Source of the DNA: Agromyces albus
GTDB taxonomy: Bacteria > Actinomycetota > Actinomycetes > Actinomycetales > Microbacteriaceae
DNA length: 64,000 bases
Direction of reading: 5' to 3'
Assembly (NCBI RefSeq): GCF_030815405.1
Contig: NZ_JAUSWX010000001.1
Coordinates: forward strand, 186,001-250,000
The translations under genes and the position numbers were made by a program. This document shows, in pieces, positions 8,403 through 30,560 of this stretch (position 1 is its first letter; each line of letters opens with the position of its first letter). The notes under the pieces were generated by a model. It ran no database searches. It worked only from the letters and a program-made list of their open reading frames with translations, and was not told where the DNA came from.

Positions 8403-10115
8403 TCAGGCGGTGAGGTCGGATGACGCCACGTCGACGATCGCGTGCGTGCGAGCCGCGGCATCCGTCGCCTGCTTCTCCCACGGCGCAGCGAACGGGAAGT
8501 ACCCCTCGAGGAAGTCGATGACGGCGCTCGTTCGCTCTTCGACGTCGAGCTCGGGGAAGCTCCCGTCGTTCAGGCAGAACATGTCTTGGTTGCGGCGCTT
8601 CAGGAGCTGCTTCATCGCGGGCAGCGCCTGGCGCAGCGTCGTCTCGATGTACTTCACGCGCGCATCGGTCTGCACGACGGCATGCCCGGCGAGCAGCGCG
8701 TAGTAGTGGTAGAGCGAGTTCGTCACCGAGATGTCGGTGGCCGAGCGGAAGCGGCTCGCGGCCGTGCGCCGGAACTCTTCAGGGAACGCCTGCTCGAGCT
8801 CGGCCATGACGCTCTTGCGCAGCGGAGCCGCGCAGTGCTCGAGGTGGCGCGTGGTGACCTTGCCGAATTTGTCGCGCAAGAGGGCCCGGTTGACGCGCGC
8901 GGCGTTCTCGAAGCCGCTGCGCCCGGGGTGGGTGCCGCCGAGTCCGATGCGGGTCGACGCCTCGACGAACTTCGTGATGCCACCCGGCGAGAAGAACAGC
9001 GACGGGCTCACGGGCCGGCCGAAGAACATGTCGTCGTTCGAGTAGAGGAAGTGCTCGGCGAGGCCCTCGATGTGGTGCAGCTGGCTCTCGACGGCGTGCG
9101 AGTTGTGCGTCGGCAGCACGGAGGTGTCGGCGAACATCTCTTCACTGCGAACGAGCGTGACCTTCGGATGCTTCGCGAGCCAGCTCGGTGCGGGCGAGTC
9201 GGTGGCGATGAAGATGCGTCGCACCCAGGGTGCGAACAGGTGCACCGAGCGGAGCGCGTACTTCAGCTCGTCGATCTGGCGGTAGCGCGCCTCGGAGTCA
9301 TCGCCCTCTCCGACGACGTAGCTCTGCATGCGCTTCGCGCGCTCGCGCACGAACTCGTCGCTCGAGCCGTCGACCCAGGAGAAGACCATGTCGATCTCGA
9401 AGTCGACGTCGCTCGCAAGCGGCGCGAACATGTGCTCGAGGGTCGGCCACTCGCGGCCGTGCAGCTGCACGACGTCGTCGGTGGCCTCGGACCGGGGGAG
9501 CGTTCGGCGCATGAGCGCGTTCTCGACGGGCGCCTCGATGGTCTCGTCGCCGAAGCGCCAGAACTCGAGCTGCACCGCGGTCTCCTTGCCGTAGCGCAAG
9601 CGCCCGGCGGGTTCGACGCGGGGCCGGTGCACGCGCAACACGGTGGGCTTGCGGTGCGAGGAGAGGCGTCCGTCGGCGAGCAGCACGGGGTGCGAGTCGG
9701 CCGCCCGTTGGGGCTCGATGGTCGCCGCGTAGAACGGCTCGTTCACGAACGCCTCGGCGAACGCGCTGGCCACCGCCTTGCGCTCGGCGCGATCGACGGC
9801 GATCACGAGGCGATCGTCGTTGCCGCGCACGAGGAGGAACGGGATGCCGGCCGCGTCGAGGGCGTCGCCGACGGCGCGCAGGTCTTCGACCATCGACTCG
9901 TGCGGCGTCATGTGGCCGTTGCGCAGCGCGTACTGGCCCTTGCGGATGACGAGGTCGTCGCGATCGAACCGTGACAGGCGCGGGGCGGATGCCACGAGCA
10001 CGAGTTCCGACGCATCGCTCAGCCGCATCGGCGGGGCGGGAGAGGGTTCCCTCCTCGCGAACGCATGCCCATCGTGCGGCTGCCGGTCAGGTGTTCGATC
10101 GCGGGGTCTCGTCAC
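8403..10115 (-). CDS. Stealth-family capsular/teichoic polysaccharide phosphotransferase
   Basis: A 570-residue protein with the conserved Stealth regions in order: CR1 around IDMVFSWVDGSS (about residue 240), CR2 with the DELKYALRSVHLFAPWVRRIFIATD block, CR3 around HFLYSNDDMFFG, and CR4 near the C terminus. This fold transfers hexose-1-phosphate from a nucleotide sugar, building phosphodiester-linked surface glycans. The first 230 residues lack a recognisable domain and may bind the acceptor. The GTG at 10115 is chosen because GGAGG lies about ten bases upstream; a TACAAT hexamer on the minus strand (10169-10174) could be its -10. It stands alone and shares no operon with glycan genes here. 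Confidence 0.87.
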   Translation of the reverse strand: MTRPRDRTPDRQPHDGHAFARREPSPAPPMRLSDASELVLVASAPRLSRFDRDDLVIRKGQYALRNGHMTPHESMVEDLRAVGDALDAAGIPFLLVRGNDDRLVIAVDRAERKAVASAFAEAFVNEPFYAATIEPQRAADSHPVLLADGRLSSHRKPTVLRVHRPRVEPAGRLRYGKETAVQLEFWRFGDETIEAPVENALMRRTLPRSEATDDVVQLHGREWPTLEHMFAPLASDVDFEIDMVFSWVDGSSDEFVRERAKRMQSYVVGEGDDSEARYRQIDELKYALRSVHLFAPWVRRIFIATDSPAPSWLAKHPKVTLVRSEEMFADTSVLPTHNSHAVESQLHHIEGLAEHFLYSNDDMFFGRPVSPSLFFSPGGITKFVEASTRIGLGGTHPGRSGFENAARVNRALLRDKFGKVTTRHLEHCAAPLRKSVMAELEQAFPEEFRRTAASRFRSATDISVTNSLYHYYALLAGHAVVQTDARVKYIETTLRQALPAMKQLLKRRNQDMFCLNDGSFPELDVEERTSAVIDFLEGYFPFAAPWEKQATDAAARTHAIVDVASSDLTA

Positions 10116-12728: not shown

Positions 12729-12753
12729 TGACGCGCACTTACGTCGCGCGTCA
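12729..12753. promoter_or_regulatory. Inverted repeat upstream of the FMN reductase gene
   Basis: TGACGCGC and GCGCGTCA are perfect 8-bp arms separated by nine bases, centred about 45 bases upstream of the putative -10. The TGACG core recurs in the promoters of the following genes, which suggests a shared activator. Confidence 0.45.
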
Positions 12754-12783
12754 CGCCTCGTGGCGGCATCCGCTCGTCGTGCC

Positions 12784-12798
12784 TAGCGTCGGAGCATG
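12784..12798 (+). promoter_or_regulatory. Leaderless promoter of the FMN reductase gene
   Basis: TAGCGT (12784-12789) ends six bases before the ATG at 12796 and no ribosome-binding site fits otherwise. The stretch GCGGCATCCGCT upstream and CCTAGCGTCGG around the hexamer are shared almost exactly with the promoter at 13511-13540. Confidence 0.5.
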
Positions 12799-13386
12799 TC
12801 GCCCGTCGTCTCACTCGTCGCCGTCTCCGGCAGCCTGCACTCGCCGTCGAAGACCACCGTGCTCGTCTCCGAGATCCTCGACCAGTTCGCCGCGGCCCTC
12901 GGCGACCACGTCGAGGTCGAGACGCAGCTCATCGAGCTGGGAGAGATCGGGCGGGAGTTCTCGGGTGCGTTGCGCCGCGAGGAGTTGAGCCCCACGGCCG
13001 AGGCGGCAGTGCGCCGGATCGAGTCCGCAACGCTGCTCATTGTCGCGAGCCCGGTCTATCGGGCCTCGTTCACCGGACTGTTCAAGCATGTCTTCGACTT
13101 CGTGGGGCAGTACTCGCTCATCGACACGCCGGTGCTGCTCGCCGCCACCGGTGGCAGCGACCGGCACTCGCTCATCATCGACCACCAGTTCCGGCCCCTG
13201 TTCTCGTTCTTCCAGGCCATCACCCTGCCGATCGGCGTGTACGCGAGCGACGCCGACTTCGTCGACTATCGCATCGAGGCGCCGGCCCTGCGTGAGCGGA
13301 TCGGTCAAGCCGTGAGCCGGGGGCTGCCGGTGGTGCGCGCGGCGATCCTCCCCGACACCGTCTCGGAGTACGTCGCCATCTGGTGA
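12796..13386 (+). CDS. NAD(P)H-dependent FMN reductase, MsuE/SsuE family
   Basis: A 196-residue flavodoxin-fold reductase. The phosphate-binding loop SGSLHSPSKT (about residues 11-20) and SPVYRASFTGLFKHVFD (about residues 80-96) are signature elements of the MsuE/SsuE group, and ATGGSDRHSLIIDHQFRPL is characteristic of MsuE. It supplies reduced FMN to two-component flavin monooxygenases that cleave C-S bonds of sulfonates. It is directly followed by a class of monooxygenase that needs such a partner. This identification, with the neighbours, is the main reason to suspect organosulfur metabolism in this cluster. Confidence 0.9.
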   Translation: MSPVVSLVAVSGSLHSPSKTTVLVSEILDQFAAALGDHVEVETQLIELGEIGREFSGALRREELSPTAEAAVRRIESATLLIVASPVYRASFTGLFKHVFDFVGQYSLIDTPVLLAATGGSDRHSLIIDHQFRPLFSFFQAITLPIGVYASDADFVDYRIEAPALRERIGQAVSRGLPVVRAAILPDTVSEYVAIW

Positions 13387-13444
13387 GCGGATGCCGCTGC
13401 CCGACAGTGCGCCGGCGGGCCCACCGGGCGCTTCCGTGCGTCAG

Positions 13445-13503
13445 GCGTGACGGCAGATGACGCGCCGTTGAGGCGTGTGACGGCCGGTTCCCTCGTGTGA
13501 CGG
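13445..13503 (+). promoter_or_regulatory. Helically phased TGACG repeat array upstream of the LLM monooxygenase
   Basis: TGACG starts at 13448, 13458, 13478 and 13498, that is at multiples of ten bases. Two copies lie in the exact decamer CGTGTGACGG at 13474-13483 and 13494-13503. Copies on one face of the helix fit cooperative binding by a regulator. Confidence 0.5.
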
Positions 13504-13531
13504 GTGTCGTCGCGGCATCCGCTTGCCGTCC

Positions 13532-13537
13532 CTAGCG
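13532..13537 (+). promoter_or_regulatory. Putative -10 element of the LLM monooxygenase gene
   Basis: TAGCGT is embedded in CCTAGCGTCGG, identical to the element at the FMN reductase promoter. Here it is followed by a short leader carrying GGGAGG five bases before the ATG at 13558. Confidence 0.4.
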
Positions 13538-13557
13538 TCGGGTGCAGGGAGGTCGAC

Positions 13558-14982
13558 ATGTCACGACTCATCATCGGCGCAATGGTCCGCGCGATCGGCG
13601 CCTACCCGAGCGGCTGGCGGTATCCGGGGGCGCACCGCGATCCGCGCGGCGATGCCGCGGTGCTCCGACGGGCTGCCGAGGTCGCCGAGGCGGCGCGCCT
13701 CGACTACCTGTTCTTCGGCGACTGGCTCGCGACGGGCCACGACCTCGAGTTCCGCGACCCATACCTGGTCGCGCGCATCGACCCGATCAGCGCGATCACC
13801 TACCTCGCCGGCGTGACGCAGCGCATCGGTCTCATCGCCACCGCGAACACCACGTATGCCGACCCGTACTCGCTCGCCCGGTCGACCGCCTCGGCCGACC
13901 TCCTGAGCGGCGGCCGCGCGGGACTCAACCTCGTGACCGGTGCCGAACCGCGGGCGGCGGGCAACCACGGCCGCGACTTCCACGTGGCGAACGAGACACG
14001 CTACGACCGGGCCGTCGAGTTCGAACTCGTGCTGCGCCGGCTCTGGGACTCGTTCGACGACGACGCGATCGTCGCGGATGCCGCGAGCGGGGTCTACCTC
14101 GATCCCTCGCGCCTGCACGCCACCGATTTCCACGGCTCGCATCTCAGCGTGACGGGGCCGCTCAACGTCGCCCGCCCGGTACAGGGTCACCTGCCGATCG
14201 TGCACGCGGGCACCTCGCCCCGTTCCCGGCTCTTCGCCGCGCAGAGCGCCGACCTCGCACTCGTCGCCGTGTCGGGGATGGCGCAGGCCGCGGCGATCCG
14301 CGAGGAGCTGCGTGCGCTCGCATTCGAGTCGGGCCGCGACGACCGCACGTTGAAGGTGATTGCGCCGGTGCTGCCGATCGTCGGCGAGACCCGCGAGCAC
14401 GCGCAATCGATCGCCGACGAGCTCAGCGAACTCGTGCAGATCGCCGAGGACTGGCCCGACGGTCCGCCCGAGGCCTTCCCGGCGAATCGCTCGCTCGCGC
14501 AGCTCTCGACGCTCGTCGGCGTCGACCTCACGGGGCGCTCACCTGATCGCGCCGTGACGCCGTCGCTCATCGCGGGCTTCAGCGCCGCGGGGCAGGAGCT
14601 CGTCGAGATCGTCGGAGAGCGCACGGGGCGCACTCCCCTGGGGGAGCGCCCGCCGACCCTGCGGCACCTCGTCGTCGCGGCATCCGTCAATGCCTCGATG
14701 ATCGTCGGTACGGCCGTGGAGATCGCCGCGGAGTTCGAAGCGTGGGGCGACGCCGGTGCCGTCGACGGGTTCAACGTGCTGTCGGCCGTGCAACCCGCGC
14801 AGTTCGAGGCGTTCGCCCTCGGGGTCGTGCCCGAGTTGCAGCGACGGGGCGTGTTCCCGACCGAATACGAGGGCGAGACACTGCGTGATCACCTCGGTCT
14901 CGAGCGTTCGGCGAGCGTGCACGTGACGCCCGGTGACCCAGTATTTCCGAGCGTTTCGCGGCGTGACGGCGTCAGTCGTTGA
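13558..14982 (+). CDS. FMN-dependent luciferase-like monooxygenase, NtaA/SnaA/DmoA family
   Basis: A 474-residue bacterial-luciferase-fold enzyme, the longer form typical of NtaA, SnaA, DszA and DmoA, not of SsuD. Typical segments are the N-terminal strand with AIGAYPSGWRYPGA, the FFGDWLA region, the GLIATANTTYADPYSLARS stretch, and NLVTGAEPRAAGNHG, which shapes the FMN phosphate site. These enzymes use FMNH2 from a separate reductase and O2 to oxidise chelators, sulfides, sulfones or thiophenes. The preceding gene encodes just such a reductase. GGGAGG five bases upstream supports ATG 13558. Its last codons overlap the conserved upstream element of the ABC-importer promoter. Confidence 0.88.
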   Translation: MSRLIIGAMVRAIGAYPSGWRYPGAHRDPRGDAAVLRRAAEVAEAARLDYLFFGDWLATGHDLEFRDPYLVARIDPISAITYLAGVTQRIGLIATANTTYADPYSLARSTASADLLSGGRAGLNLVTGAEPRAAGNHGRDFHVANETRYDRAVEFELVLRRLWDSFDDDAIVADAASGVYLDPSRLHATDFHGSHLSVTGPLNVARPVQGHLPIVHAGTSPRSRLFAAQSADLALVAVSGMAQAAAIREELRALAFESGRDDRTLKVIAPVLPIVGETREHAQSIADELSELVQIAEDWPDGPPEAFPANRSLAQLSTLVGVDLTGRSPDRAVTPSLIAGFSAAGQELVEIVGERTGRTPLGERPPTLRHLVVAASVNASMIVGTAVEIAAEFEAWGDAGAVDGFNVLSAVQPAQFEAFALGVVPELQRRGVFPTEYEGETLRDHLGLERSASVHVTPGDPVFPSVSRRDGVSR

Positions 14983-15015
14983 TCGATTGAGACCGCGCGG
15001 CGGCGTCCGTAGCTT
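14958..15015 (+). promoter_or_regulatory. Promoter of the ABC importer / monooxygenase operon with conserved upstream element
   Basis: GCGGCGTGAC (14958-14967), 19 bases, TTGAGA (14987-14992), 17 bases, TAGCTT (15010-15015). The same three elements with the same spacings precede the SufS-like gene at 22563-22620, so both units are probably co-regulated. Confidence 0.6.
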
Positions 15016-15024
15016 CAATCGAAC

Positions 15025-15041
15025 CGCCCTCACCAAGGGCG
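15025..15041 (+). other. Small leader hairpin before the substrate-binding protein
   Basis: CGCCCT and AGGGCG form a 6-bp stem around CACCA in the predicted leader between the promoter and the ATG at 15078. It could stabilise the transcript; nothing links it to a known riboswitch. Confidence 0.25.
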
Positions 15042-15077
15042 TATCTGCTCCGTTCCCGACCGAAGGAATCCCAGCTC

Positions 15078-16718
15078 ATGCCAACGCAACGACCACGCCG
15101 TATCGCCGCCGCCGGCCTCGCGGCACTCGCCACCACCGCCCTGCTCGCCTCCTGCGCAGCGCAAGCCGGGAGCGCGGATGCCGCCGCCGCCGCCGGTGAG
15201 CCCGTCACCGGCGGCACCCTCACCTACCTCGAGCACCAGCCGCACACGACGCTGTACCCGCCGCAGGCCGGCTTCTACCCGAACGGCGGCATCGTGAACA
15301 ACATCACCTCCCGCCTCACGTGGCAGGACCCCGAGTCGCTCGAGATCGAGCCATGGGTCGCGGAGGAATGGACCGTGAACGCGGATGCCACGGAGTACAC
15401 CTTCGAGCTCCGAGACGACGTGACCTTCTCCGACGGCACGCCGCTCGACGCGGCCGCCGTGGCGAAGAACTTCGACACGTACGGGCTCGGCAACACCGAG
15501 CTCGGCCTCACGATCTCGGAAGCGATCAACAACTACGCCTCGAGCGAGGTCGTCGACGCCGACACCGTGACGTTCCGGTTCTCGGCACCCGCGCCCGGCT
15601 TCCTGCAGGCGACGTCGACCATCAACTCGGGCCTGCTCTCGCCGGCCACGCTCGACCGCAGGCTCGAGGACTTCGGTGCCGGCTCGTCGACCGAGATCGT
15701 CGGCTCAGGTCCCTTCGTCGTCACCGAGGAGGAGATCGGCACCTCGCTCCACCTCGAGGCGCGTGAGGACTACGACTGGGCTCCGCCGTCGTTCGAGCAC
15801 CAGGGTCGCGCGTACCTCGATGCGATCGACGTCGTCGTGACGCCCGAGGACAGTGTGCGCATCGGCTCGCTCCTCGCCGGCCAGGCGGATGCGATCCGCT
15901 ACGTGCAGGCCTTCGACGAGGCACAGGTGTCGGGCGCGGGCTTCGAGATCGTCGCGGCTCCCACGCGAGGCGTGAACAATTCGCTCGGGCTGCGGTTCAC
16001 GAACCCGCTGCTGAGCGACATCCGGGTGCGGCAGGCGCTCGTGCACGGCGTCGACGCCCAGGAGGTCGTCGACACGATCTTCACCGAGAACTACCCCGTT
16101 GCGACGTCGGAGCTCGCCTCGACGGCGAAGGGCTACACCGACGAGTCGGACGCGCTGGCCTACGACCCCTCGCTCTCCGAGGAACTGCTCGAGGAGGCCG
16201 GATGGACGGTCGGCGCCGGCGGCATCCGTGAGAAGGACGGCGAGCGCCTCTCGCTCACCGTCTACGAGGCGAAGCCGCAGCCGCTCTCGAAGCAGACCCT
16301 CGAGCTCGTGAGCCAGCAGCTCGCGAAGATCGGCGTCGAGCTCGAGGTGAAGGCGGCGGATGCCGGCAGCTACGCGACCGACATCCTCGACCCGCTCGCG
16401 ACCCCGCTCTACCACTCGATGGTCGGACGCGCCGACAACGACGTGATCAAGAGCCAGTACCACACGAGGAACCGCAACACGCTGCTCTCGAACGACGCCG
16501 AGCTCGACCGGCTGCTCGAGGTCGTGGCATCCGAGCCCGACCCCGCGAAGCGTGACGAGGCATCCGCCGCCGTGCAGGACTACCTGACCGAGCGGGCCTA
16601 CGTCATCCCGCTCTTCGAGGAGCCGCAGGTCTACGGAGCGGCGCCGTACGTGCACGGGTTCACGACCGAGGCCGTCGCCCGTCCGCAGTTCTACGACACC
16701 TGGCTCGACAAGCAGTAG
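15078..16718 (+). CDS. ABC transporter substrate-binding lipoprotein, family 5 (KPN_01854-like)
   Basis: A 546-residue extracytoplasmic solute receptor of the dipeptide/oligopeptide/nickel superfamily. A Tat/Sec-like basic start is followed by a hydrophobic stretch and a lipobox ending LLASC, so Cys 26 should be lipidated. The TLTYLEHQPHTTLYP segment and the family-5 pattern (FELRDDVTFSDGTPLDAAAV) are clear. From memory, the NCBIfam model for a KPN_01854-type receptor is defined by genes always next to the same monooxygenase and AhpD-fold proteins seen here. The ligand is unknown. The gene opens a seven-gene run with four-base overlaps at several junctions. Confidence 0.88.
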   Translation: MPTQRPRRIAAAGLAALATTALLASCAAQAGSADAAAAAGEPVTGGTLTYLEHQPHTTLYPPQAGFYPNGGIVNNITSRLTWQDPESLEIEPWVAEEWTVNADATEYTFELRDDVTFSDGTPLDAAAVAKNFDTYGLGNTELGLTISEAINNYASSEVVDADTVTFRFSAPAPGFLQATSTINSGLLSPATLDRRLEDFGAGSSTEIVGSGPFVVTEEEIGTSLHLEAREDYDWAPPSFEHQGRAYLDAIDVVVTPEDSVRIGSLLAGQADAIRYVQAFDEAQVSGAGFEIVAAPTRGVNNSLGLRFTNPLLSDIRVRQALVHGVDAQEVVDTIFTENYPVATSELASTAKGYTDESDALAYDPSLSEELLEEAGWTVGAGGIREKDGERLSLTVYEAKPQPLSKQTLELVSQQLAKIGVELEVKAADAGSYATDILDPLATPLYHSMVGRADNDVIKSQYHTRNRNTLLSNDAELDRLLEVVASEPDPAKRDEASAAVQDYLTERAYVIPLFEEPQVYGAAPYVHGFTTEAVARPQFYDTWLDKQ

Positions 16719-16816
16719 CCGGCACCCCGGTGCGGCGGATGCCGGGACACGACCCCGCGCATCCGCCGCGCCACCTCCCACCGCATCGACCCCACCATCG
16801 TCGGAAGGAGCTTCCC

Positions 16817-17755
16817 ATGGCCTACCTCGCACGCCGCACCGCGCAAGCACTCATCGTGCTCGCGATCGCGTTCACGGCGACGTTCGTGCTGCTGCAGGCG
16901 CTGCCGGGCGACGCGATCCTCATCAAGTTCGAGAGCCCCGAGCTGGGCCTCTCGCCCGAGCAGATCGCCGACATCCGGGCGAGTTACGGCGCAGACGTGC
17001 CGCCGCTGCAGCAGTTCCTGCACACGGTGGCGGGATTCCTGCAGGGCGACTTCGGGTACTCGGTGCAATACGGCACGCCGGTGCACGAGCTCATCGGCTC
17101 GGCCCTGCCCGACACGCTCGCACTCGCTGGGCTCGGGTTCCTCACCGCGGTGCTGCTCGCCGTCGCCCTCGCGTTCCTCTCCACGCTCGCGCCGTTCGGC
17201 TGGCTCCGGCGGGGGCTCCGGGCGCTGCCGGGCGTCTTCGTCTCCGTGCCGGTGTTCTGGCTCGGCATCGTGCTCATCCAGGTCTTCTCGTTCCAGCTCC
17301 GACTCGTGCCGGTGATCGGCGCCGACCCCGCGCAGGCGCTCATCCTCCCGGTGCTCACCCTCGCCATCCCGATCTCGGCTCCGCTCGCGCAGATCCTCGC
17401 CCGATCGATCGACGAGGTGCAGCTCTCGCCGTTCGTCGCGGTCGTGCGAGCGAAGGGAGCCGGCCCGGCACGCGTGCTCTGGGGAGACGTCGCCCGCAAC
17501 GCGCTGCTGCCCGCCGTCACGATCGCGGGCGTGCTCGTCGGCGAGCTCATCGGCGGCGCCGTCGTCACCGAGACGGTCTTCGGGCGGGCGGGCATCGGCC
17601 GGCTCACCGAGCAGGCCGTCGCCAACCAGGACGTGCCCGTGCTGCAGGCGATCGTGATCCTCGCCGCGCTCGTGTTCGTGCTCGTGAACCTCGTCGTGGA
17701 CCTCGTGTATCCGATCCTCGATCCCAGGCTGAAGCGGAAGGCGGTGGCGGCATGA
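16817..17755 (+). CDS. ABC transporter permease, DppB/OppB type
   Basis: A 312-residue inner-membrane component with six predicted helices. The N-terminal YLARRTAQALIVLAIAFTATFVLLQALPGD and the cytoplasmic EAA-like loop near residues 205-225 (ARSIDEVQLSPFVAVVRAKG) are the landmarks of DppB-type subunits. The loop contacts the ATPase. GGAAGGAG lies upstream. It overlaps the second permease by four bases and, with the lipoprotein and the fused ATPase, completes an importer. Confidence 0.9.
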   Translation: MAYLARRTAQALIVLAIAFTATFVLLQALPGDAILIKFESPELGLSPEQIADIRASYGADVPPLQQFLHTVAGFLQGDFGYSVQYGTPVHELIGSALPDTLALAGLGFLTAVLLAVALAFLSTLAPFGWLRRGLRALPGVFVSVPVFWLGIVLIQVFSFQLRLVPVIGADPAQALILPVLTLAIPISAPLAQILARSIDEVQLSPFVAVVRAKGAGPARVLWGDVARNALLPAVTIAGVLVGELIGGAVVTETVFGRAGIGRLTEQAVANQDVPVLQAIVILAALVFVLVNLVVDLVYPILDPRLKRKAVAA

Positions 17756-18549
17756 GCGCAGACATCCGCCCGGGCCTTGCGCTCGCGTGGCTCGTCATCG
17801 CGATCGCGATCGCCTGGGCGATCGTGCCCTGGCTCTTCACCGGACAGAACCCGATCAGCGGCGTGCCGGCGGAGAAGCTGCAGGGGCCGAGCCTCGCGCA
17901 CCTCTTCGGCACCGACGCGATCGGCCGTGACCTCTTCACTCGCGTGGTCCACGGCGCGGTGCACTCCCTGTCGGGCGCGTTCGTCGCGGTGACGGTGGGA
18001 CTCGTCGCGGGCACGCTGCTCGGCGTGCTGGCCGGGTCGCTCGGCGGCGTCGTCGACGCGGCGATCATGCGGCTCGTCGACGTGCTGCTCGCGATTCCGG
18101 GGCTGCTGCTCGCGCTCAGCATCATCATCCTGCTCGGCTTCGGAACCGTGAATGCCGCGATCGCGGTAGGTGTGGGCTCGATCGCGGCGTTCGCCCGGGT
18201 GTCCCGGTCGGAGGTCGTCCGGGTGCGGCAGAGCGAGTACGTCGAGGCCGCATTCGGCTCGGGCGCGAGACTGCACGCGGTACTCCTCCGGCACGTGCTG
18301 CCGAATTCGCTCACCGCCGTGGTCGGACTCGCCGCCCTGCAGTTCGGCACGGCGATCTTGGCGATCTCCACCCTCGGCTTCCTCGGCTACGGCGCTCCGC
18401 CGCCGACGCCCGAGTGGGGCCTGCTCATCGCCGAGGGCCGCAATTACGTCGCCACCTCCTGGTGGCTCACCGTGCTGCCCGGCCTCGTCGTCGTGGCCGT
18501 CGTGCTCTCGGCCAACCGCATCAGCCAATCCCTCGGGAGGTCCAGATGA
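17752..18549 (+). CDS. ABC transporter permease, DppC/OppC type
   Basis: A 265-residue partner permease. HLFGTDAIGRDLFTRVVHGA is the hallmark of DppC subunits, and the EAA loop is seen around VVRVRQSEYVEAAFGSGA. About six transmembrane segments are predicted. The start overlaps the previous stop (ATGA), and the stop overlaps the ATPase start in the same manner, so the transporter genes should be made in fixed ratio. Confidence 0.9.
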   Translation: MSADIRPGLALAWLVIAIAIAWAIVPWLFTGQNPISGVPAEKLQGPSLAHLFGTDAIGRDLFTRVVHGAVHSLSGAFVAVTVGLVAGTLLGVLAGSLGGVVDAAIMRLVDVLLAIPGLLLALSIIILLGFGTVNAAIAVGVGSIAAFARVSRSEVVRVRQSEYVEAAFGSGARLHAVLLRHVLPNSLTAVVGLAALQFGTAILAISTLGFLGYGAPPPTPEWGLLIAEGRNYVATSWWLTVLPGLVVVAVVLSANRISQSLGRSR

Positions 18550-20195
18550 ACGCGCTCCTCGAACTCGAGCACCTCGACATCGCCTATCGCAATTCGGCGG
18601 GGTCGCGGCGGGTCGTGCACGACGTCTCCTTCGAGGTGCACCCCGGCGAGGTCGTCGCGCTCGTCGGCGAGTCCGGGTCGGGCAAGACCACGACCTCGAG
18701 TGCCGTGCTCGGACTGCTGCCTTCCGGCGGCCGCATCGAGTCGGGCGCCGTGCGTCTCTCGGGCACCGACCTCGCGGGCTGGAGCGACCGACGGCTCGAG
18801 AGCGTGCGCGGTGCCCGCATCGGTTACATCCCGCAGGATCCGGTCTCGTCGCTGAACCCCGTGCGCCCGATCGGCGTGCAGCTCGCCGACACCTTCCGCA
18901 TCCACGGTCGCGGCGACCGGCGCTCGGTGCGCGGCCGCGTGCTCGAGCTGCTCGAGCGCGTCGGCCTCGACGACCCGGTGCTGCGCGCCCGCCAGTACCC
19001 GCACGAGCTCTCGGGCGGCATGCGGCAGCGCGTGCTCATCGCCAATGCGGTCGCCCTCTCGCCCGAGCTCGTCATCGCCGATGAACCCACGAGTGCGCTC
19101 GACGTCACGGTGCAACGGCGAATACTCGACCTCATCGACGAGCTTCGGCGAGAGCACGGCACCGCGGTGCTCCTCGTGACCCACGACCTCGGGGTCGCCG
19201 CCGAGCGGGCCGAGCGAATCGTCGTCATGCAGCATGGCCGCATCGTCGAACAGGGGCGCACCCAGTCGCTCCTCGACGCGCCCGCGGAGGCGTACACGCA
19301 ACGGTTGCTGGCGGATGCCCCAGGGCTCGCCGAGCACGCGTTCCGCCACCCGCGGCCACCCCTGTACCTGCGCGATGCCGGGGTCGCCGCTGCCGAGAAC
19401 CCGTTCGCGCTCGCGGCATCCGGGCTCACGAAGGCCTACCCCGTCGGACGTGGCCGGGAGCCGTTCCGCGCGGTCGACGAGGTCTCGTTCCGCGTGCTGC
19501 GCGGCACGACGCACGCGATCGTCGGCGAGTCGGGCTCGGGCAAGACCACCACGGCGCGCATCGTCTCCCGTTTCATCACCCCAGACGCCGGCTCGGTCGA
19601 GCTCGGCGGCACCGAGGTGACGACGCTGACGGGCGCGGCGAAGCGCGCATTCCGCCGCAGGGTGCAGCTCGTCTACCAGAATCCGTTCGCCTCGCTCGAC
19701 CCGCGGCAGACCGTCGCGGAGATCATCGCCGAGCCGCTGCGGAACTTCGGCGTCGGCGACCGGCGCTCGCGTGCGGATGCCGCGGCGCGCCTGATCGACC
19801 GCGTCGCCCTGCCGGCGCAGGTCGCGACCCATCGCCCGGCGGAACTCTCGGGCGGGCAGCGGCAGCGTGTTGCGATCGCGCGGGCCCTCGCGCTCGAGCC
19901 CGAGCTCGTCGTGCTCGACGAGGCCGTCTCCGCCCTCGACGTGACGGTGCAGGCCCGCATCCTCGAGCTCCTGGAGCACCTGCAGGGCGAACTCGGCCTC
20001 AGCTACCTCTTCATCTCGCACGACCTCGCGGTCGTCCAGCGCATCAGCCACTCGGTGTCGGTCATGCGCCACGGCCGCATCGTCGAGAGCGGGCCGACCG
20101 AGCAGGTCTTCCGCGCACCACAGCACGAGTACACCCGGGAACTGCTCGCCGCGGTTCCCCGACGGGCAGCGCCCACACGAGAGGCATTCGCATGA
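18546..20195 (+). CDS. ABC transporter ATP-binding protein, DppD-DppF fusion
   Basis: A 549-residue protein with two complete nucleotide-binding domains. Domain 1 has Walker A GESGSGKTT (about residue 41), signature LSGGMRQRV and Walker B LVIADEPTSALD. Domain 2 (from about residue 285) has GESGSGKTT, LSGGQRQRV and LVVLDEAVSALD. In the second Walker B the usual Pro-Thr is replaced by Ala-Val, a common tolerated variant. The fusion replaces separate DppD and DppF subunits and makes the importer self-sufficient. It overlaps both neighbours by four bases. Confidence 0.92.
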   Translation: MNALLELEHLDIAYRNSAGSRRVVHDVSFEVHPGEVVALVGESGSGKTTTSSAVLGLLPSGGRIESGAVRLSGTDLAGWSDRRLESVRGARIGYIPQDPVSSLNPVRPIGVQLADTFRIHGRGDRRSVRGRVLELLERVGLDDPVLRARQYPHELSGGMRQRVLIANAVALSPELVIADEPTSALDVTVQRRILDLIDELRREHGTAVLLVTHDLGVAAERAERIVVMQHGRIVEQGRTQSLLDAPAEAYTQRLLADAPGLAEHAFRHPRPPLYLRDAGVAAAENPFALAASGLTKAYPVGRGREPFRAVDEVSFRVLRGTTHAIVGESGSGKTTTARIVSRFITPDAGSVELGGTEVTTLTGAAKRAFRRRVQLVYQNPFASLDPRQTVAEIIAEPLRNFGVGDRRSRADAAARLIDRVALPAQVATHRPAELSGGQRQRVAIARALALEPELVVLDEAVSALDVTVQARILELLEHLQGELGLSYLFISHDLAVVQRISHSVSVMRHGRIVESGPTEQVFRAPQHEYTRELLAAVPRRAAPTREAFA

Positions 20196-21238
20196 CTCGC
20201 ATCGGTTTCTTCACCCGGCTCCTCGACGAGGCATCCGCCGCCGAGCGGTACCGCATCGCGACGGAGCAGATCGTCGCGGCCGAGCGCCACGGCTTCGACT
20301 CCGCGTGGGTCGCCCAGCACCACTTCCACGCGGCGGAGGGCGGGCTGCCCTCGCCGTTCGTGTTCCTCGCGCACGCGGCCGCGTCGACCAGTCGCATCCG
20401 GCTCGGCACGGGCGTCGTGACCCTGCCGCTCGAGGACCCGGTACGGGTCGCCGAGGATGCCGTGGTGCTCGACCTGCTCTCGGGAGGGCGCGTGGAGCTC
20501 GGCATCGGCTCGGGCTCGACGCCCGCGTCGTTCCGGGCGTTCGGCGAACGCTCCGAGGATCGCGGGCGCGTGTTCGCCGAGAAGCTCGATGCCCTCGTCG
20601 CCGCGCTCGCCGGCGGTGAGCTGGGCGACCCCGCGAACCACCTCCAACCGCCCGGCCGGGATCTCCTCGGGCGAGTCTGGCAGGCGACGTTCTCGGCATT
20701 CGGCGGCACGCGCGCGGGCCGGGCAGGGCACGGCCTCATGCTCTCGCGCACGCAACCGAGGCCAGCGGATGCCCCGCGCCGCACGCTCTCGGAGCTCCAG
20801 CTGCCCGTGATCGACGCCTACCGCGAGGCGTTGCCCGGCGGGGTGCCGCCGCGGATCCTCGCGTCCCGCACGCTCTTCGTCGCGGACTCCCGTGACGAGG
20901 CGCGGCGCTTCGCGGAGCGCGGACTCCGCCGCGCCGCCGCCGGATTCGCACGAGCCGGGCAGCCGCCGCTCGGCGACACCCTCGACGAACTCATCGCGAG
21001 CTACGACACCCACGTCGGCACGCCCGCGGAGGTCATCGAATCGCTCGCACGCGACTCGGCGGCCGCCGAGGCGACGGAGGTCGCGTTCCAGGTGCACTCG
21101 GTCGATCCGCCGCACGAGCTCGTGCTGCGCTCGATCGAGCTCATCGCGACCGAGGTCGCTCCGGCGCTCGGCTGGGGCACCGGGCTCGGCGACCGAAACG
21201 GCGCGCTCGCGGCATCCGCCACCGGATCGAATTCGTAG
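20192..21238 (+). CDS. Putative FMN-dependent luciferase-like monooxygenase (KPN_01858-like)
   Basis: A 348-residue LLM-fold protein of the shorter class. It opens with RIGFFTRLLDEASAAERYR, then WVAQHHFHAAEGGLPSPFVFLAHAA, a luciferase-family segment, and RIRLGTGVVTLPLEDP. It differs clearly from the NtaA-like enzyme upstream, so the cluster has two flavin oxygenases with presumably sequential or distinct substrates. I recall a dedicated NCBIfam family (KPN_01858 type) whose members always neighbour a peptide-type ABC importer; the reaction has not, to my knowledge, been shown. It overlaps the ATPase by four bases. Confidence 0.85.
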   Translation: MTRIGFFTRLLDEASAAERYRIATEQIVAAERHGFDSAWVAQHHFHAAEGGLPSPFVFLAHAAASTSRIRLGTGVVTLPLEDPVRVAEDAVVLDLLSGGRVELGIGSGSTPASFRAFGERSEDRGRVFAEKLDALVAALAGGELGDPANHLQPPGRDLLGRVWQATFSAFGGTRAGRAGHGLMLSRTQPRPADAPRRTLSELQLPVIDAYREALPGGVPPRILASRTLFVADSRDEARRFAERGLRRAAAGFARAGQPPLGDTLDELIASYDTHVGTPAEVIESLARDSAAAEATEVAFQVHSVDPPHELVLRSIELIATEVAPALGWGTGLGDRNGALAASATGSNS

Positions 21239-21301
21239 AAGCACGCCGTCGGCGGCGTCAGGAACCGAAGACATTCGCCCACTCAGAGAGAAGGAAGCAC
21301 C

Positions 21302-21898
21302 ATGACCGACATCATCGACCGGCTCGCCGGCGTGCGGCCGGGCGGGAGCGTCGACGCACTGCGCCGGCACCGCCCCGCGACCCGCGACAACGCCCAGGCG
21401 AGCTACGACGCCCTCTTCACCGTGATCGACGAGACCCACGCGAGCCTCGCGGAGCGTGCGGCCGTCGCCCAGTTCGTCGCCGCCCTGCACGCGGACCAGG
21501 TGGCGACCGCCCATTATGGGGTGCTCACCCGCGAGGCGGCGGGCGACCGGCTCGCCGACGGGATCGACCGGCTCGCGGGCGCCGCGCGCACGACAGGCCC
21601 GTATGGCGATTACCCGGCCGACGGCCCGCTCACCCGCGAGAGCGTGCCAGGGCCGCGGTTCGCGGTCGACGACGAGGTGCGCGCCGCACTCGGCGACCGC
21701 CTCAGCGCCGCCCTCGAGCACGCGCACCTGCTCGTGTTCCGCCCGCGCGAGTCCTCGGTCGCCGCGCTCGCCCGGCTCGCCGACGCGGGCTGGTCGACCG
21801 ACGGCATCGTCACCCTCTCCCAGCTCGTGTCGTTCCTCGCGTTCCAGCTGCGCGTGGCCGCGGGGCTCCGCTTGCTCACCACGGAGGACGCAGCATGA
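21302..21898 (+). CDS. Carboxymuconolactone-decarboxylase-domain protein (Avi_7170-like)
   Basis: A 198-residue all-helical protein of the AhpD/CMD fold but without the CxxC redox pair. The middle HADQVATAHYGVLTREAA segment and the C-terminal GWSTDGIVTLSQLVSFLAFQLRVAAGLR stretch match, from memory, the Avi_7170-type CMD family found only with the transporter and monooxygenase above. Lacking the two Cys, it is probably not a peroxidase on its own and may form a complex with the next gene product. GAAGGAAG precedes the ATG. Its stop overlaps the next start by four bases. Confidence 0.82.
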   Translation: MTDIIDRLAGVRPGGSVDALRRHRPATRDNAQASYDALFTVIDETHASLAERAAVAQFVAALHADQVATAHYGVLTREAAGDRLADGIDRLAGAARTTGPYGDYPADGPLTRESVPGPRFAVDDEVRAALGDRLSAALEHAHLLVFRPRESSVAALARLADAGWSTDGIVTLSQLVSFLAFQLRVAAGLRLLTTEDAA

Positions 21899-22551
21899 CC
21901 GAGCAGATCATCGACGAGGCGACGGATGCCGCGACCGGCACGCCCGCCCGCATCCTCGAGCACCCCGGCGCAGCCGTGCCCCGTGCCTTCACGCAAGCGG
22001 AGCTGGGCTGGCTGCCGTGGCTCGAGCCGGCCGACGAGGCGACGCTCACCGAGCGCCAGCATGCAGGGCTCGTCGACCGCTCGCGGGTGAAGAGCGACTA
22101 CTTCCGGCTGCTCGTGCGCGATCCCGACATCCTGAGGGCGCGCACGCTCACCGACAAGGACATCTTCTACAACGCGAGCGACGGTCTGCCGCGCGCCGAG
22201 CGCGAGCTCGCAGCGGCCGCGACGAGCCGCTTCAACGGCTGCATCTTCTGCGCTTCGGTGCACGCGCGATTCGCGACGCATCACTCGAAGCGCCACGACG
22301 ACGTGCAGCGGTTGCTCGACGAGGGGGTCGATGCGGCGCAGGATGCCGCGTGGCGTGCCGTGATCGACGCGGCCGTCGCGCTCGCCGCGACCCCGTCGAG
22401 GCTCGAGCCGGCGCACCTCGACGCCCTGCGGGACGCGGGGTTCGGCGAGCAGGCGATCTCCGACGTCATCCACTCGGCGGCGTTCTTCAATTGGGCGAAC
22501 CGGCTCATGCTCTCGCTCGGCGAACCTGAGGACGCACCGCCCCTTCCGTGA
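21895..22551 (+). CDS. Alkylhydroperoxidase AhpD-fold protein (Avi_7169-like)
   Basis: A 218-residue AhpD-fold protein that does carry the redox pair: FNGCIFCASVHARFA (Cys at about residues 117 and 120, His at 124) is the conserved CxxC-x3-H centre of AhpD peroxidases. It is longer than typical AhpD by about 60 residues, mainly at the N terminus. With the Cys-less partner encoded just before it, it could detoxify peroxide or reactive by-products of the two flavin oxygenases, or act as a thiol-dependent lyase. It closes the seven-gene overlapping operon. Confidence 0.85.
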   Translation: MTEQIIDEATDAATGTPARILEHPGAAVPRAFTQAELGWLPWLEPADEATLTERQHAGLVDRSRVKSDYFRLLVRDPDILRARTLTDKDIFYNASDGLPRAERELAAAATSRFNGCIFCASVHARFATHHSKRHDDVQRLLDEGVDAAQDAAWRAVIDAAVALAATPSRLEPAHLDALRDAGFGEQAISDVIHSAAFFNWANRLMLSLGEPEDAPPLP

Positions 22552-22562
22552 CCGAATGTTGC

Positions 22563-22620
22563 GCGGCGTGACACCGTGCGGCGTCTCACGGTTGAGGGGT
22601 TGCCGCGGCATCCGTAGCCT
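22563..22620 (+). promoter_or_regulatory. Promoter of the SufS-like gene with conserved upstream element
   Basis: GCGGCGTGAC (22563-22572), 19 bases, TTGAGG (22592-22597), 17 bases, TAGCCT (22615-22620). All three elements and both spacings match the importer promoter at 14958-15015, although the sequences between them differ. Confidence 0.6.
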
Positions 22621-22651
22621 CGTGCCACACGAGTTGCGAGGAGTGCGCACC

Positions 22652-24019
22652 ATGATCGGCATCGAGGAGCCAACGACGGCGATGCTGTCGGCGCCTCGAC
22701 GAGTGCTGACGGATGCCGCGCCCACTGCGGGGCCTGCGGCGCCTGCCACTCTCGGGCCGCTCGCCGTGCTCGCCGACGCCGGCCTCGAGGTGCCGGTGCT
22801 CGGCGGCGGATTCGTGCGCCACGTCAACCTCGACGTCGCCGCCTCAGCGCCCGCGCTCGAGGCCGTGAGCGCACACGTCGCACGAGTGCTGCCCTACTAC
22901 TCGAGCGTGCACCGCGGCGCGGGCTACCCGTCGCAGCTCTCGACGACGCTCGTCGAGGAGGCCCGCGGCACGGTCGCCCGCCACGTCGGTGCCCGCGACG
23001 ACGACCTCGTCGTCTTCACTCGAAACACGACCGACGCGCTCAACCTGCTCGCGAGCGCCGTGCCGGGCGACACCGTCGTCCTCGACCTCGAGCACCACGC
23101 GAACCTGCTGCCGTGGCGTGCCGATGCGCGGCGCGTCGTCGTCGCCCGCCGCACGATCGCCGAGACGCTCGACGCGCTCGACGCCGAGCTCGCCCGATGT
23201 CCGGCCGCGCTGCTCACGGTGACGGGCGCGTCGAACGTCACGGGCGAGGTGCTGCCCATCGCGAGGCTCGCCGAGCTCGCCCACGCGCGAGGCGCGCGAG
23301 TCGCGATCGACGCCGCGCAACTGCTGCCGCACCGCAGGGTCGACATCGCGGCATCCGGAGTCGACTACCTCGCCTTCTCCGGACACAAGGCGTACGCGCC
23401 GTTCGGCGCAGGTGCGCTCGTCGGGCGCGCCGACTGGCTCGACGCGGCGCCCGCGTACCTCGCCGGCGGGGGAGCGGTCGCCGCCGTGCGCGTCGACGGC
23501 GCCGACTGGAAGCGGGGCGCCGACCGCCACGAGGCGGGCACGCCGAACGTGATCGGCATCGCGGCGCTCGCTCGCGCACTCACCGAGCTCGAACGGCTCG
23601 GCGAGGCGGCGCGCGCGAGTCACGAGCAGGCCCTCACCGATCGCCTCCACGCGGGGCTCACCGCGCAACGCGGCATCCGGGTCATCCGCGGCTTCGACGA
23701 CGCCGACGACCGGCTCGGCATCGCGACCATCGAGCTCGAGCGCGGCTCGGTGGGGCGGCTCGCCGCGGCGCTCGCCGCCGAGCACGGCATCTCGGTGCGC
23801 GCGGGCCGGTTCTGCGCCCACCCTTTCTTCGACCGAGTCGCGACGAGGGCCAACGGGCTTCGCGCGAGCCTCGGCGCGGGCACGTCCGGCGACGACGTCG
23901 ACCGGTTCCTCGCCGCGCTGGCCACGCTCATCGCCGACGGCCCGGCCCACGCCTACGAGCGTTCGACGGCCGGCTGGTGCCCCGTCGACGACGATCGGCC
24001 CCGGCCGGCGTTCGACTGA
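22652..24019 (+). CDS. Class V aminotransferase / SufS-like cysteine desulfurase
   Basis: A 455-residue PLP enzyme. The N-terminal 50 residues are an Ala/Pro-rich extension; the fold begins near HVNLDVAASAPAL. Key features are the SSVHRGAGYPSQLST segment, LEHHANLLPW, DAAQLLPHRRVD and the lysine in AFSGHKAYAPFG that would hold PLP. Near the C terminus, VRAGRFCAHPF aligns with the active-site loop of class II (SufS/CsdA) cysteine desulfurases, in which the Cys takes up sulfur. It is not near suf genes; the shared promoter architecture ties it to the ABC/monooxygenase operon. It could mobilise sulfur or cleave a C-S or C-N bond of an intermediate. GAGGAG is eight bases before ATG 22652. Confidence 0.8.
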   Translation: MIGIEEPTTAMLSAPRRVLTDAAPTAGPAAPATLGPLAVLADAGLEVPVLGGGFVRHVNLDVAASAPALEAVSAHVARVLPYYSSVHRGAGYPSQLSTTLVEEARGTVARHVGARDDDLVVFTRNTTDALNLLASAVPGDTVVLDLEHHANLLPWRADARRVVVARRTIAETLDALDAELARCPAALLTVTGASNVTGEVLPIARLAELAHARGARVAIDAAQLLPHRRVDIAASGVDYLAFSGHKAYAPFGAGALVGRADWLDAAPAYLAGGGAVAAVRVDGADWKRGADRHEAGTPNVIGIAALARALTELERLGEAARASHEQALTDRLHAGLTAQRGIRVIRGFDDADDRLGIATIELERGSVGRLAAALAAEHGISVRAGRFCAHPFFDRVATRANGLRASLGAGTSGDDVDRFLAALATLIADGPAHAYERSTAGWCPVDDDRPRPAFD

Positions 24020-24094
24020 GGCACGGTCGGTTCCGCCGACCGTCGCGTATTCGGGGGCATTCCCACGGCGTCATCCATGCGCCACACTGAGCGC

Positions 24095-25015
24095 ATGGAC
24101 TCAGTGTTGACCTCCATCGGATTGCCCGTCGCCCTCGGCATCATCATGTTCGGCCTGGGCCTCTCGCTCACACCGGGCGACTTCTCGCGTGTCGCGAAGC
24201 ATCCGAAGGCCGTGGTCGTCGCCCTCCTCTGCCAGATCGTCGCGCTGCCCGCTGTCTGTCTCGCGCTCGTGCTGCTCTTCCGATTGCCGCCCGTGCTCGC
24301 TGTGGGCATGATGCTGCTCGCGGCATCGCCCGGCGGCACCACCGCGAACCTCTACAGTCACCTGTTCCGCGGCGATGTCGCCCTGAACATCTCACTCACC
24401 GCGATCAACTCGGTGCTCGCCGTCGTCACGCTGCCGCTCATCACGAACCTCGCGATCGGCTATTTCCTGCCCGGGAACGACGAGCTCGGCCTGCAGCTCG
24501 CGAAGAGCGTGGAGGTGTTCGCGATCGTGCTCATCCCCATCGTGCTCGGCATGCTCGTACGGTGGTGGCGGTCGGGCTTCGCCGACCGCATGGACAAGCC
24601 CGTGCGCATCGCATCCGTCGTCATCCTCGTGATCGTCATCGCCGGGGCGATCGTCGAGAACCGCGAGCTGCTCTTGGAGAACGCGGGCCGCCTCGCCGGC
24701 ATCACGATCGCCTTCTGCCTGCTGAGCCTCACCGTCGGCTACCTCGTGCCGCGACTGCTGCGCGTCAACTCGACGCAAGCGGTCGCGAGCTCGTTCGAGA
24801 TCGGCATCCACAACGCGACGCTCGCGATCGTGATCGCCCAGACGGTGATCGGGAGCGTCGAGATGAGCCTGCCCGCCGCGGTCTACGGCGTGCTCATGTT
24901 CTTCATCGCGCTCGCGTTCGGGTTCCTCATCCGCGAGAGAGGGAGTGCCGAGACGGATGCCGCCGCGATCGCCGTGCCCACGGTGCGGCGGGTCGCGCAA
25001 CCACCGGGGAGCTGA
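24095..25015 (+). CDS. Bile acid:sodium symporter (BASS/SBF) family transporter
   Basis: A 306-residue membrane protein with nine to ten predicted helices. The pattern MFGLGLSLTPGDFSRVAKHP at the N terminus, LLAASPGGTTANLYSHL (the conserved ASPGG crossover) and the second crossover near SFEIGIHNATLAIVI are diagnostic of the sodium-coupled BASS fold. Bacterial relatives move organic anions such as keto acids, pantoate or sulfonated compounds; its position beside the flavin oxygenase cluster hints at a related anion but proves nothing. An upstream ATG at 24077 is in frame. I prefer 24095, which lies six bases after CACACT in the leaderless spacing seen throughout this region. Confidence 0.88.
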   Translation: MDSVLTSIGLPVALGIIMFGLGLSLTPGDFSRVAKHPKAVVVALLCQIVALPAVCLALVLLFRLPPVLAVGMMLLAASPGGTTANLYSHLFRGDVALNISLTAINSVLAVVTLPLITNLAIGYFLPGNDELGLQLAKSVEVFAIVLIPIVLGMLVRWWRSGFADRMDKPVRIASVVILVIVIAGAIVENRELLLENAGRLAGITIAFCLLSLTVGYLVPRLLRVNSTQAVASSFEIGIHNATLAIVIAQTVIGSVEMSLPAAVYGVLMFFIALAFGFLIRERGSAETDAAAIAVPTVRRVAQPPGS

Positions 25016-29059: not shown

Positions 29060-29082
29060 CGCGTCCCTTCCCGTCGTCGCCG

Positions 29083-29120
29083 TTGTACGCGGTGTCCAAC
29101 TACCTGCACCAGAGTGTACA
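29083..29120. promoter_or_regulatory. Candidate regulator-binding dyad between pucR-type gene and gabT
   Basis: TTGTAC-gc-GGTG and CACC-aga-GTGTACA form an imperfect inverted repeat; the TGTAC cores are 31 bases apart, near three helical turns. The right half covers the putative -10 of the regulator gene, compatible with autorepression and activation of gabT. Confidence 0.4.
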
Positions 29121-29201
29121 TGCGGGCGCTGCGGCATCCGTGAGCACCGACCTAGCATGAGCGGCATCCGTCACCGTCGTCATCTTGCATCGGAGCAGCC
29201 C

Positions 29202-30556: not shown

Positions 30557-30560
<4 letters not shown>
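29202..30560 (+). CDS. gabT: 4-aminobutyrate--2-oxoglutarate transaminase
   Basis: A 452-residue class III aminotransferase. It shows the fold's markers: LIDLGSGIAVTGVGNANPRV, FNSGAEAVENAVKIAR (phosphate and cofactor region), AYHGRTNLTMGLT, IIEPIQGEGGF, the Asp in FIADEVQTGFGRTG and the PLP lysine in TAKGIAGGLPL. These are closest to bacterial GabT, which converts GABA and 2-oxoglutarate to succinate semialdehyde and glutamate. It is the first gene after the divergent PucR-type regulator and overlaps glutamate dehydrogenase by four bases. A TAGCAT -10 candidate is at 29153-29158. Confidence 0.93.

Follow-up and report, generated by a model that had tools for sequence, protein, structure and literature searches.

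An organosulfur-uptake island predicted from gene content, conservation and sulfur-poor proteins in an Agromyces genome

The window analysed here is a 64,000-base stretch (bases 186001–250000) of the 4,268,800-base, one-contig genome of Agromyces albus, and all positions are window-based unless another locus is named. It contains ten contiguous genes on the plus strand (12796–24019), which encode an FMN reductase, two flavin-dependent monooxygenases, an ATP-binding cassette (ABC) importer, two AhpD-fold proteins and a SufS-like enzyme. Gene calling reproduces this layout, proposed in a first-pass annotation, together with a seven-gene operon at 15078–22551, in which four of the six junctions are 4-base overlaps and the other two are gaps of 98 and 63 bases. 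The annotation is thus partly confirmed: it is correct in outline, and its starts and its description of a CxxC pair need correction. The starts are revised to 13558 (NtaA), 16817 (first permease), 18546 (ATPase), and 22652 (SufS-like). The alternative SufS-like start at 22556 is upstream of a promoter-like stretch (22568–22622), and 22652 is therefore taken as the start.

The first two genes precede the operon. The product of 12796–13386 is an MsuE-type NAD(P)H:FMN reductase of 196 residues (TIGR03566, 236.9 bits; cut-off 212.5) with no Cys and no internal Met. The product of 13558–14982 is an NtaA/DmoA-family FMNH2-dependent monooxygenase of 474 residues (TIGR03860, 371 bits; cut-off 279.7). 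Both had been named as such from the letters alone. Among solved structures, the NtaA protein is matched best by YtnJ/MoxC (E = 7e-63) and DszA (1.3e-59), followed by 3sdo, labelled nitrilotriacetate monooxygenase (2e-55). Its score against the SsuD model TIGR03565 is 53.8 bits, for a cut-off of 518.

The operon starts with a lipoprotein substrate-binding protein (SBP; 15078–16718) of family TIGR04028 (SBP_KPN_01854; 790 bits, cut-off 468.5). Two Dpp/Nik-type permeases (16817–17755, PF00528 and PF19300; 17752–18549, PF00528) and a fused double ATPase of 549 residues with two ABC_tran stretches (18546–20195) complete the importer. Next come a luciferase-like monooxygenase (LLM; 20192–21238) of TIGR04027 (LLM_KPN_01858; 528 bits, cut-off 412.9), a TIGR04029 'CMD domain protein' (21302–21898; 192.7 bits, cut-off 100.75), and a TIGR04030 AhpD-type protein (21895–22551; 274 bits, cut-off 233). 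All four TIGR04027–04030 genes sit inside the single operon. No function is on record for TIGR04027–04030 in the sources searched.

The last gene (22652–24019) encodes a pyridoxal phosphate (PLP) enzyme of the cysteine desulfurase/lyase fold. It scores 244 bits against a SufS cut-off of 475 and falls below every NCBIfam cut-off shown, so the name SufS-like reflects similarity only. Its PLP Lys and active-site Cys align with those of a solved cysteine desulfurase, and the two residues (Lys208 and Cys350 when counting begins at 22766, an internal start) are kept in five of five Agromyces.

The most distinctive property of the ten proteins is their sulfur-poor make-up. Counted without the start residue, they contain 15 Cys+Met in 3505 residues (0.43%) with the starts of the open reading frame (ORF) caller and 17 in 3551 (0.48%) with corrected starts, and thus are Cys/Met-poor as proteins of sulfur-starvation scavenging operons are. 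The other 40 window genes of at least 150 residues have a mean of 1.73%. The stretch 12796–24019 is the lowest ten-gene run in the window, and 100,000 random sets include none with so low a value. The edges are sharp, with 3.37% in the flanking genes before the cluster and 3.28% after it. The MsuE protein, one permease and the CMD protein have no Cys+Met at all, and the SBP has one internal Met and, as its sole Cys, the lipobox Cys.

The depletion recurs in relatives. Among loci with at least two of SBP, LLM and AhpD, the cassette is lower than its flanks in 101 of 104 (for example, 0.53 versus 3.71% in Rahnella and 0.49 versus 2.49% in Ensifer). In a test by genus, which used 103 of the 104 (one had too little flank), this holds in 26 of 27 genus-level groups, formed from named loci and the window, a few labels being order or family names only. 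It also holds with annotated coordinates in six plasmid loci (L090 with one usable flank gene), where single permeases reach 1.92% and AhpD 2.01%. The cassette permeases have 0.66 and 0.75%, versus 2.39 and 2.70% in distant paralogues (n = 9 and n = 8), and the cassette ATPase has 0.67%, versus 2.93% (n = 18). As a positive control, E. coli TauA, TauD, SsuE, SsuA, and SsuD have 0.00, 0.35, 0.00, 0.94, and 1.05%, respectively. As a negative control, a second CMD/AhpD pair of the Agromyces genome, together with its Liv-type operon, is undepleted as a unit (0.48–3.32%, the CMD protein there having 0.48%). In line with a sulfur-related cause, a Gordonia transcriptome study describes low Cys/Met broadly in sulfur-acquisition proteins and found it in induced oxygenases (PMC7661421).

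The co-occurrence of the four families named in the first-pass annotation is real. Among 198 genomes of the order, LLM, SBP, AhpD, and CMD exceed their cut-offs in 24, 25, 23, and 24 genomes, respectively, and all four do so in 22 of the 27 genomes having any; pairwise co-occurrence is significant (Fisher p < 1e-24, uncorrected for kinship). The families occur in Actinobacteria and in Alpha-, Beta-, and Gammaproteobacteria, and the core kit recurs in many other soil and plant bacteria. Named genomes yielded at least 80 loci, six of the 123 matching plasmid records were used, and whole genomes added another 33. Because our ORF caller misjudged the strand within portions of several high-GC loci (L052, L071, L076, L092, L093, and L096 among them), the gene maps rest on tblastn. 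Of 92 loci with SBP, LLM and AhpD, 69 have the order SBP-permease-permease-ATPase-LLM-CMD-AhpD, and 20 have the identical order minus a separate CMD match at the threshold used. The latter is expected, because CMD and AhpD are fused into one ORF in 20 Enterobacterales loci. The remaining three comprise one core that shows an additional ATPase match, a locus with CMD-AhpD ahead of LLM (L114), and one whose order is confused by a second cluster (L097). Five loci from Alpha- and Betaproteobacteria (L046, L059, L066, L073, and L075) instead have an importer of Liv type ahead of LLM.

The genes around this core are more variable. NtaA adjoins 20 of the 92 complete-core loci, an MsuE-like gene 16, and a SufS-like gene four, all Agromyces. 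On a tree of 110 LLMs, NtaA-bearing and fused loci require two changes each, compared with about 15 in shuffles, indicating that both NtaA presence and the CMD-AhpD fusion are lineage-bound. Two obligatory flavin-dependent steps, as first proposed, are thus not borne out; the NtaA enzyme is a lineage extra that joins LLM in Agromyces and Microbacterium. Nor does a general role of the SufS-like enzyme hold up, as its gene is present in five of five Agromyces loci and in no other genus among the loci examined. A cysteine desulfurase near one Acidovorax locus (L061) belongs to a different family.

Three cases merit separate description. The desulfurase of L061 (1053–2804) scores 909 bits against NF041166, the Family 2A encapsulin cargo cysteine desulfurase model; some 2 kb separate it from the cassette downstream, and this interval holds OsmC and glyoxalase-like genes. 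In Agromyces lapidis (L007, 8622–12704), NtaA, LLM and SufS-like genes lie side by side, and no importer, CMD or AhpD gene was detected at this locus. A variant island (L115/L116) has an LLM that is divergent, at 30% identity, and free of Cys and internal Met, together with a TIGR04028-like receptor, OsmC, LysR, and a divergent CMD/AhpD ORF, and in L116 an aldo/keto-reductase-like gene.

Several neighbours in relatives are sulfur genes. A rhodanese-type sulfurtransferase gene lies beside five and a cystathionine-beta-synthase-like gene beside four of the 92 loci (both below NCBIfam cut-offs), accompanied by a cystathionine gamma-synthase that exceeds its cut-off. At four Microbacterium loci, NtaA comes after the sulfurtransferase gene, and transsulfuration genes follow; in L015 and L082 the sulfurtransferase gene is the only one of these seen. 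Binding proteins of sulfonate, taurine and methionine type are encoded nearby in Rhizobium tumorigenes. Glyoxalase-like (VOC) genes also recur, of VOC9 type at 11 and VOC47 type at six of the 92 loci (four that were checked are PF13468), and further sulfur-poor glyoxalase-like proteins adjoin the cassette in Actinobacteria. As a separate observation, the LLM-CMD-AhpD trio of a Paracoccus denitrificans plasmid (L086, 3545–19761) lies amid sarcosine oxidase, purU, and Rieske oxygenase genes, and this context may point to a betaine-like substrate in the Paracoccus lineage.

The plasmids of Pantoea dispersa and Agrobacterium vitis carry adjoining gene sets of S-alkylcysteine type (LLM-class enzyme, GNAT, M20, and amino-acid importer) whose receptors are free of Cys and Met. 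These ytn-type sets suggest a special case of sulfur scavenging, in which the cassette would salvage S-alkylated cysteines or their N-acetyl or peptidyl forms by way of a divergent ytn/scm-type pathway (YtnJ, ScmK). YtnJ is the best match of the NtaA protein, and an M20 amidohydrolase gene lies within the Pantoea agglomerans operon. However, neither the ten window genes nor the core cassette include an acetyltransferase or deacetylase, and the ytn-type genes of both plasmids form a separate unit with its own importer. We regard this special case as rather unlikely. The ytn/scm clusters of Bacillus subtilis, described as S-alkylcysteine breakdown clusters (PMC12757645), share with the window cluster the NtaA/YtnJ-type monooxygenase and a link to sulfur salvage. 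The core cassette differs from them in its type of importer, contains neither acetyltransferase nor deacetylase, and encodes a TIGR04027 enzyme and an AhpD pair. DszA, the dibenzothiophene sulfone monooxygenase, is likewise a sequence relative of the NtaA protein, and the ten genes include no DszB- or DszC-type gene.

One member of the LLM subfamily has a solved structure. PDB 8K74 is the Klebsiella enzyme PCX02514, which aligns with the window LLM at E = 1.5e-120 over 323 residues. According to its source paper (PMC11354265), PCX02514 is a poly(acrylic acid) (PAA) oxygenase that shortens PAA chains with NADPH, at a kcat of 0.00214 per second; NADPH but not FMNH2 supports activity, unlike in bacterial luciferases, and substitutions R10A, R125A, S186A, R187A, and H253A lower activity. 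Residues R9, S185, and R186 of the window LLM align with R10, S186, and R187 of 8K74; among 111 relatives each is conserved in 95% or more, indicating that they are family-wide residues. Given so close a relative, the LLM could be taken as a PAA oxygenase and the cluster as a unit for oxidising a polymer or carboxylate carbon source. The low kcat and the cofactor preference argue against this reading, an enzyme behind a small-molecule importer would be unlikely to meet a polymer, and the Cys/Met depletion would be unexplained. We consider it extremely improbable and judge polymer oxidation to be a side activity. The consulted part of the paper gives neither gene context nor a sulfur role for PCX02514, another LLM relative receives a passing mention in a Shewanella plasmid paper (PMC6429310), and our search of the open-access literature, as far as its texts were available, for the family names and for sulfur together with these proteins found no tie between cassette and sulfur.

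The CMD and AhpD proteins had been described as a CxxC AhpD pair. This is not the case, as CxxC is present only in the AhpD protein (C116xxC119) and the CMD protein has no Cys. For the LLM and CMD homologues, scoring was confined to candidates with the most words in common, and 120 matches are listed for each; among the matches listed, CxxC occurs in none of the 120 CMD homologues and 119 have no Cys, and 104 of the 120 LLM homologues have no Cys. The CMD protein has the AhpD fold and is a probable non-catalytic partner. Direct alignment of its profile with that of AhpD by hhalign is weak (E = 0.012, probability 3.5%), and the fold assignment rests on other comparisons. The AhpD protein matches its profile and, judged by sequence, carries the CxxC with Glu and His of AhpD peroxidases; among 108 relatives, E104, C116, C119, and H123 are each conserved in 95% or more. 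Outside the window, the genome's second CMD/AhpD pair (L003, G000:C1:57103–63250; 48% and 56% identical) lies behind a Liv-type ABC importer, with an adjoining LysR-like gene and no LLM in the stretch.

The conserved AhpD residues also fit an antioxidant unit of the sulfur-starvation response, in which AhpD, CMD and, in some relatives, OsmC would remove hydroperoxides, and the oxygenases would generate or follow the stress. OsmC lies beside four of the 92 loci and in the variants L115/L116. Such a unit does not account for the dedicated importer, however, whose order with LLM and AhpD is constant in 69 + 20 of 92 loci, and we consider it very unlikely. The Enterobacterales fusion suggests that CMD and the CxxC AhpD protein act as a heteromer. 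A model of the fusion (L036, 11038–12126; other Enterobacterales loci are alike) aligns end to end with animal Sestrin2, a leucine sensor with two AhpD-like halves, at 12% identity, the mean predicted local distance difference test score of the model being only 76.6. In Sestrins the CxxC half is the first, whereas the fusion carries CxxC in the second. A common fold with Sestrin2 does not demonstrate a common function.

Promoter-like regions precede the MsuE, NtaA, SBP, and SufS-like genes, all on the plus strand. In Agromyces alignments they have TGAC-type boxes before a TAG-type -10 element, with exceptions. The MsuE region (12729–12791; two-Agromyces alignment and a pattern match in the own genome) has a TGAC box, then GGCATCCG and TAGCGTCG, and is probably leaderless, the function of the boxes being putative. 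The NtaA region (13478–13540; five Agromyces) has repeated GTGACG boxes. The presumed operon promoter (14963–15016; GTGAC, TTGAG, TAGCTT) overlaps the 3' end of NtaA, and its boxes are partly conserved in four Agromyces. The separate SufS-like region (22568–22622) reads GTGAC-N19-TTGAGG-N17-TAGCCT, with GTGAC and TTGAGG conserved in five Agromyces; this spaced pattern has a single match in the 4.27 Mb genome. The MsuE, NtaA, and SufS-like genes thus appear to have promoters of their own.

A strict form of the promoter pattern gives four matches at three sites in the whole genome, all within the cluster, and controls give none forward and one reverse. Because the pattern was drawn from the cluster promoters, its presence there is circular and only its absence elsewhere is informative. 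A looser form has matches in the clusters of G000 and G187 and none in that of G149, and 0–3 matches per genome outside the cluster in six Agromyces, three of them without LLM over the cut-off. The common layout suggests co-regulation of the cluster genes, as far as sequence patterns can indicate it. Two candidates were set aside: GGCATCCG alone was not adopted as a regulatory motif, octamers like it being, to our knowledge, common in these genomes, and a visual likeness between enteric cassette promoters and the E. coli tauA/ssuE promoters is too weak and was not used.

On the observed gene content, common promoter layout, cassette conservation and sulfur-poor protein make-up we base our preferred interpretation. 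We consider it likely that the cluster is a sulfur-starvation island, which imports an amino-acid- or peptide-like organosulfur compound and cleaves its C–S bond by flavin-dependent oxidation. Import and flavin oxidation of an organosulfur compound had been suggested by the first-pass annotation, and are well supported by the depletion, the sulfur neighbours in relatives, and the YtnJ/DszA matches of NtaA; the earlier interpretation as a whole is partly supported. Under sulfur limitation, the lipoprotein receptor and the Dpp/Nik-type importer would take up the compound, whose class is suggested by the importer type. The MsuE reductase would supply FMNH2, and the TIGR04027 monooxygenase would oxidise the compound so that the C–S bond breaks, the NtaA/YtnJ-type enzyme taking part as well in Agromyces and Microbacterium. 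By analogy with the chemistry of SsuD, MsuD, YtnJ, and ScmK, the products may be an aldehyde or keto compound and an oxidised sulfur group. The heteromer of the CxxC AhpD and its cysteine-free AhpD-fold partner might then reduce the resulting sulfenate, disulfide or peroxide, and the sulfur would pass to cysteine metabolism through the SufS-like enzyme in Agromyces or the rhodanese-type sulfurtransferase in some Microbacterium. Two adjacent PF01507 matches (PAPS reductase family) in the genome make it probable that sulfate is assimilated too, so that the island would act as a supplement.

The proposed island resembles SsuEADCB, TauABCD, and MsuED of E. coli and Pseudomonas in combining an ABC importer with an oxygenase, in having an FMN reductase (Ssu and Msu), and in its Cys/Met-poor soluble proteins. 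In contrast to these systems, its importer is of the Dpp/Nik type with a fused double ATPase, its oxygenases belong to other subfamilies, it has the AhpD pair, and its permeases and ATPase are depleted, too. It shares the MsuE reductase with Ssu/Msu systems and has no SsuD-type oxygenase over the cut-off.

A number of observations weigh against this interpretation. Three of 103 loci (L097, L052, and L074) are not below their flanks, and loci with Liv-type importers are depleted only in part. Depletion is no marker of the cassette in the case of the LLM, as its distant paralogues are equally poor (0.24% versus 0.51% for the cassette enzyme, n = 6). E. coli tauB, tauC, ssuB, and ssuC are undepleted (1.9–2.4%), indicating that depletion is not universal in sulfonate operons. 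Outside the cluster, an ABC ATPase on the minus strand (51433–52347), beside an ABC-2 type membrane protein, has no Cys or internal Met, which limits the test for single genes. The majority of the 92 loci lack every sulfur-gene type that was mapped, the Paracoccus trio is surrounded by sarcosine oxidase and formyl-tetrahydrofolate genes, and the role of AhpD in the pathway is a guess. Siderophore receptor genes are located close to the Pantoea agglomerans copy. In a Klebsiella proteome study (PMC7194016), KPN_01858, whose name TIGR04027 carries, is raised in iron limitation together with TauC; this suggests joint regulation with a taurine gene, and the rise could also indicate a metal role.

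The last two observations would fit uptake of a metal chelate. In this view, a NikA/CntA-like receptor takes in a metal bound to an aminocarboxylate or opine, and the chelator is broken down by the flavin enzymes, as by the monooxygenases of nitrilotriacetate and ethylenediaminetetraacetate. The NtaA family includes these two enzymes, 3sdo is close behind DszA, and the receptor resembles NikA (E = 2e-31) and the CntA model despite scores far under their cut-offs (150.6 versus 393 bits and 111.3 versus 800 bits, respectively). However, the distance of the receptor from the NikA cut-off argues against it, as does the fact that YtnJ and DszA rank first among the matches of the NtaA protein. The receptor also falls below the GsiB cut-off, and its alignment to solved receptors gave no clear ligand class. 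A Fur-box scan upstream of 20 Enterobacterales cassettes gave best sites with 7–9 mismatches, none superior to those of shuffles (5–10), and metal starvation leaves the Cys/Met depletion unexplained. We therefore hold the chelate explanation to be highly improbable and retain the organosulfur island.

More tentatively, the importer and the TIGR04027 oxygenase may belong to a widespread, undescribed pathway that frees sulfur from a natural compound of amino-acid- or peptide-like kind, common in soil and near plants, in which the AhpD/pseudo-AhpD heteromer reduces an oxidised sulfur intermediate, not a peroxide. As part of this same tentative proposal, the heteromer would be a bacterial counterpart of the two-halved Sestrin architecture, its cysteine-free half binding the substrate or an amino acid. 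For families on which no function is recorded, the Cys/Met signature and the sulfur neighbours turn the question of which sulfur compound is used into a testable one. Depleted neighbouring genes may provide a simple screen for the edges of other sulfur-starvation islands, and 8K74, the one family member found with a solved structure, is placed in a physiological setting other than PAA breakdown.

Other genes of the window flank the cluster. Among the minus-strand ORFs searched upstream, all are matchless but one, a Stealth-family gene with Stealth_CR1–CR4 (8403–10115, minus strand). Downstream, a transporter of the bile-acid-symporter family (PF01758) is encoded at 24077–25015. Further along, at 27515–30560, a class III aminotransferase gene is divergent from that of a PucR-type regulator.

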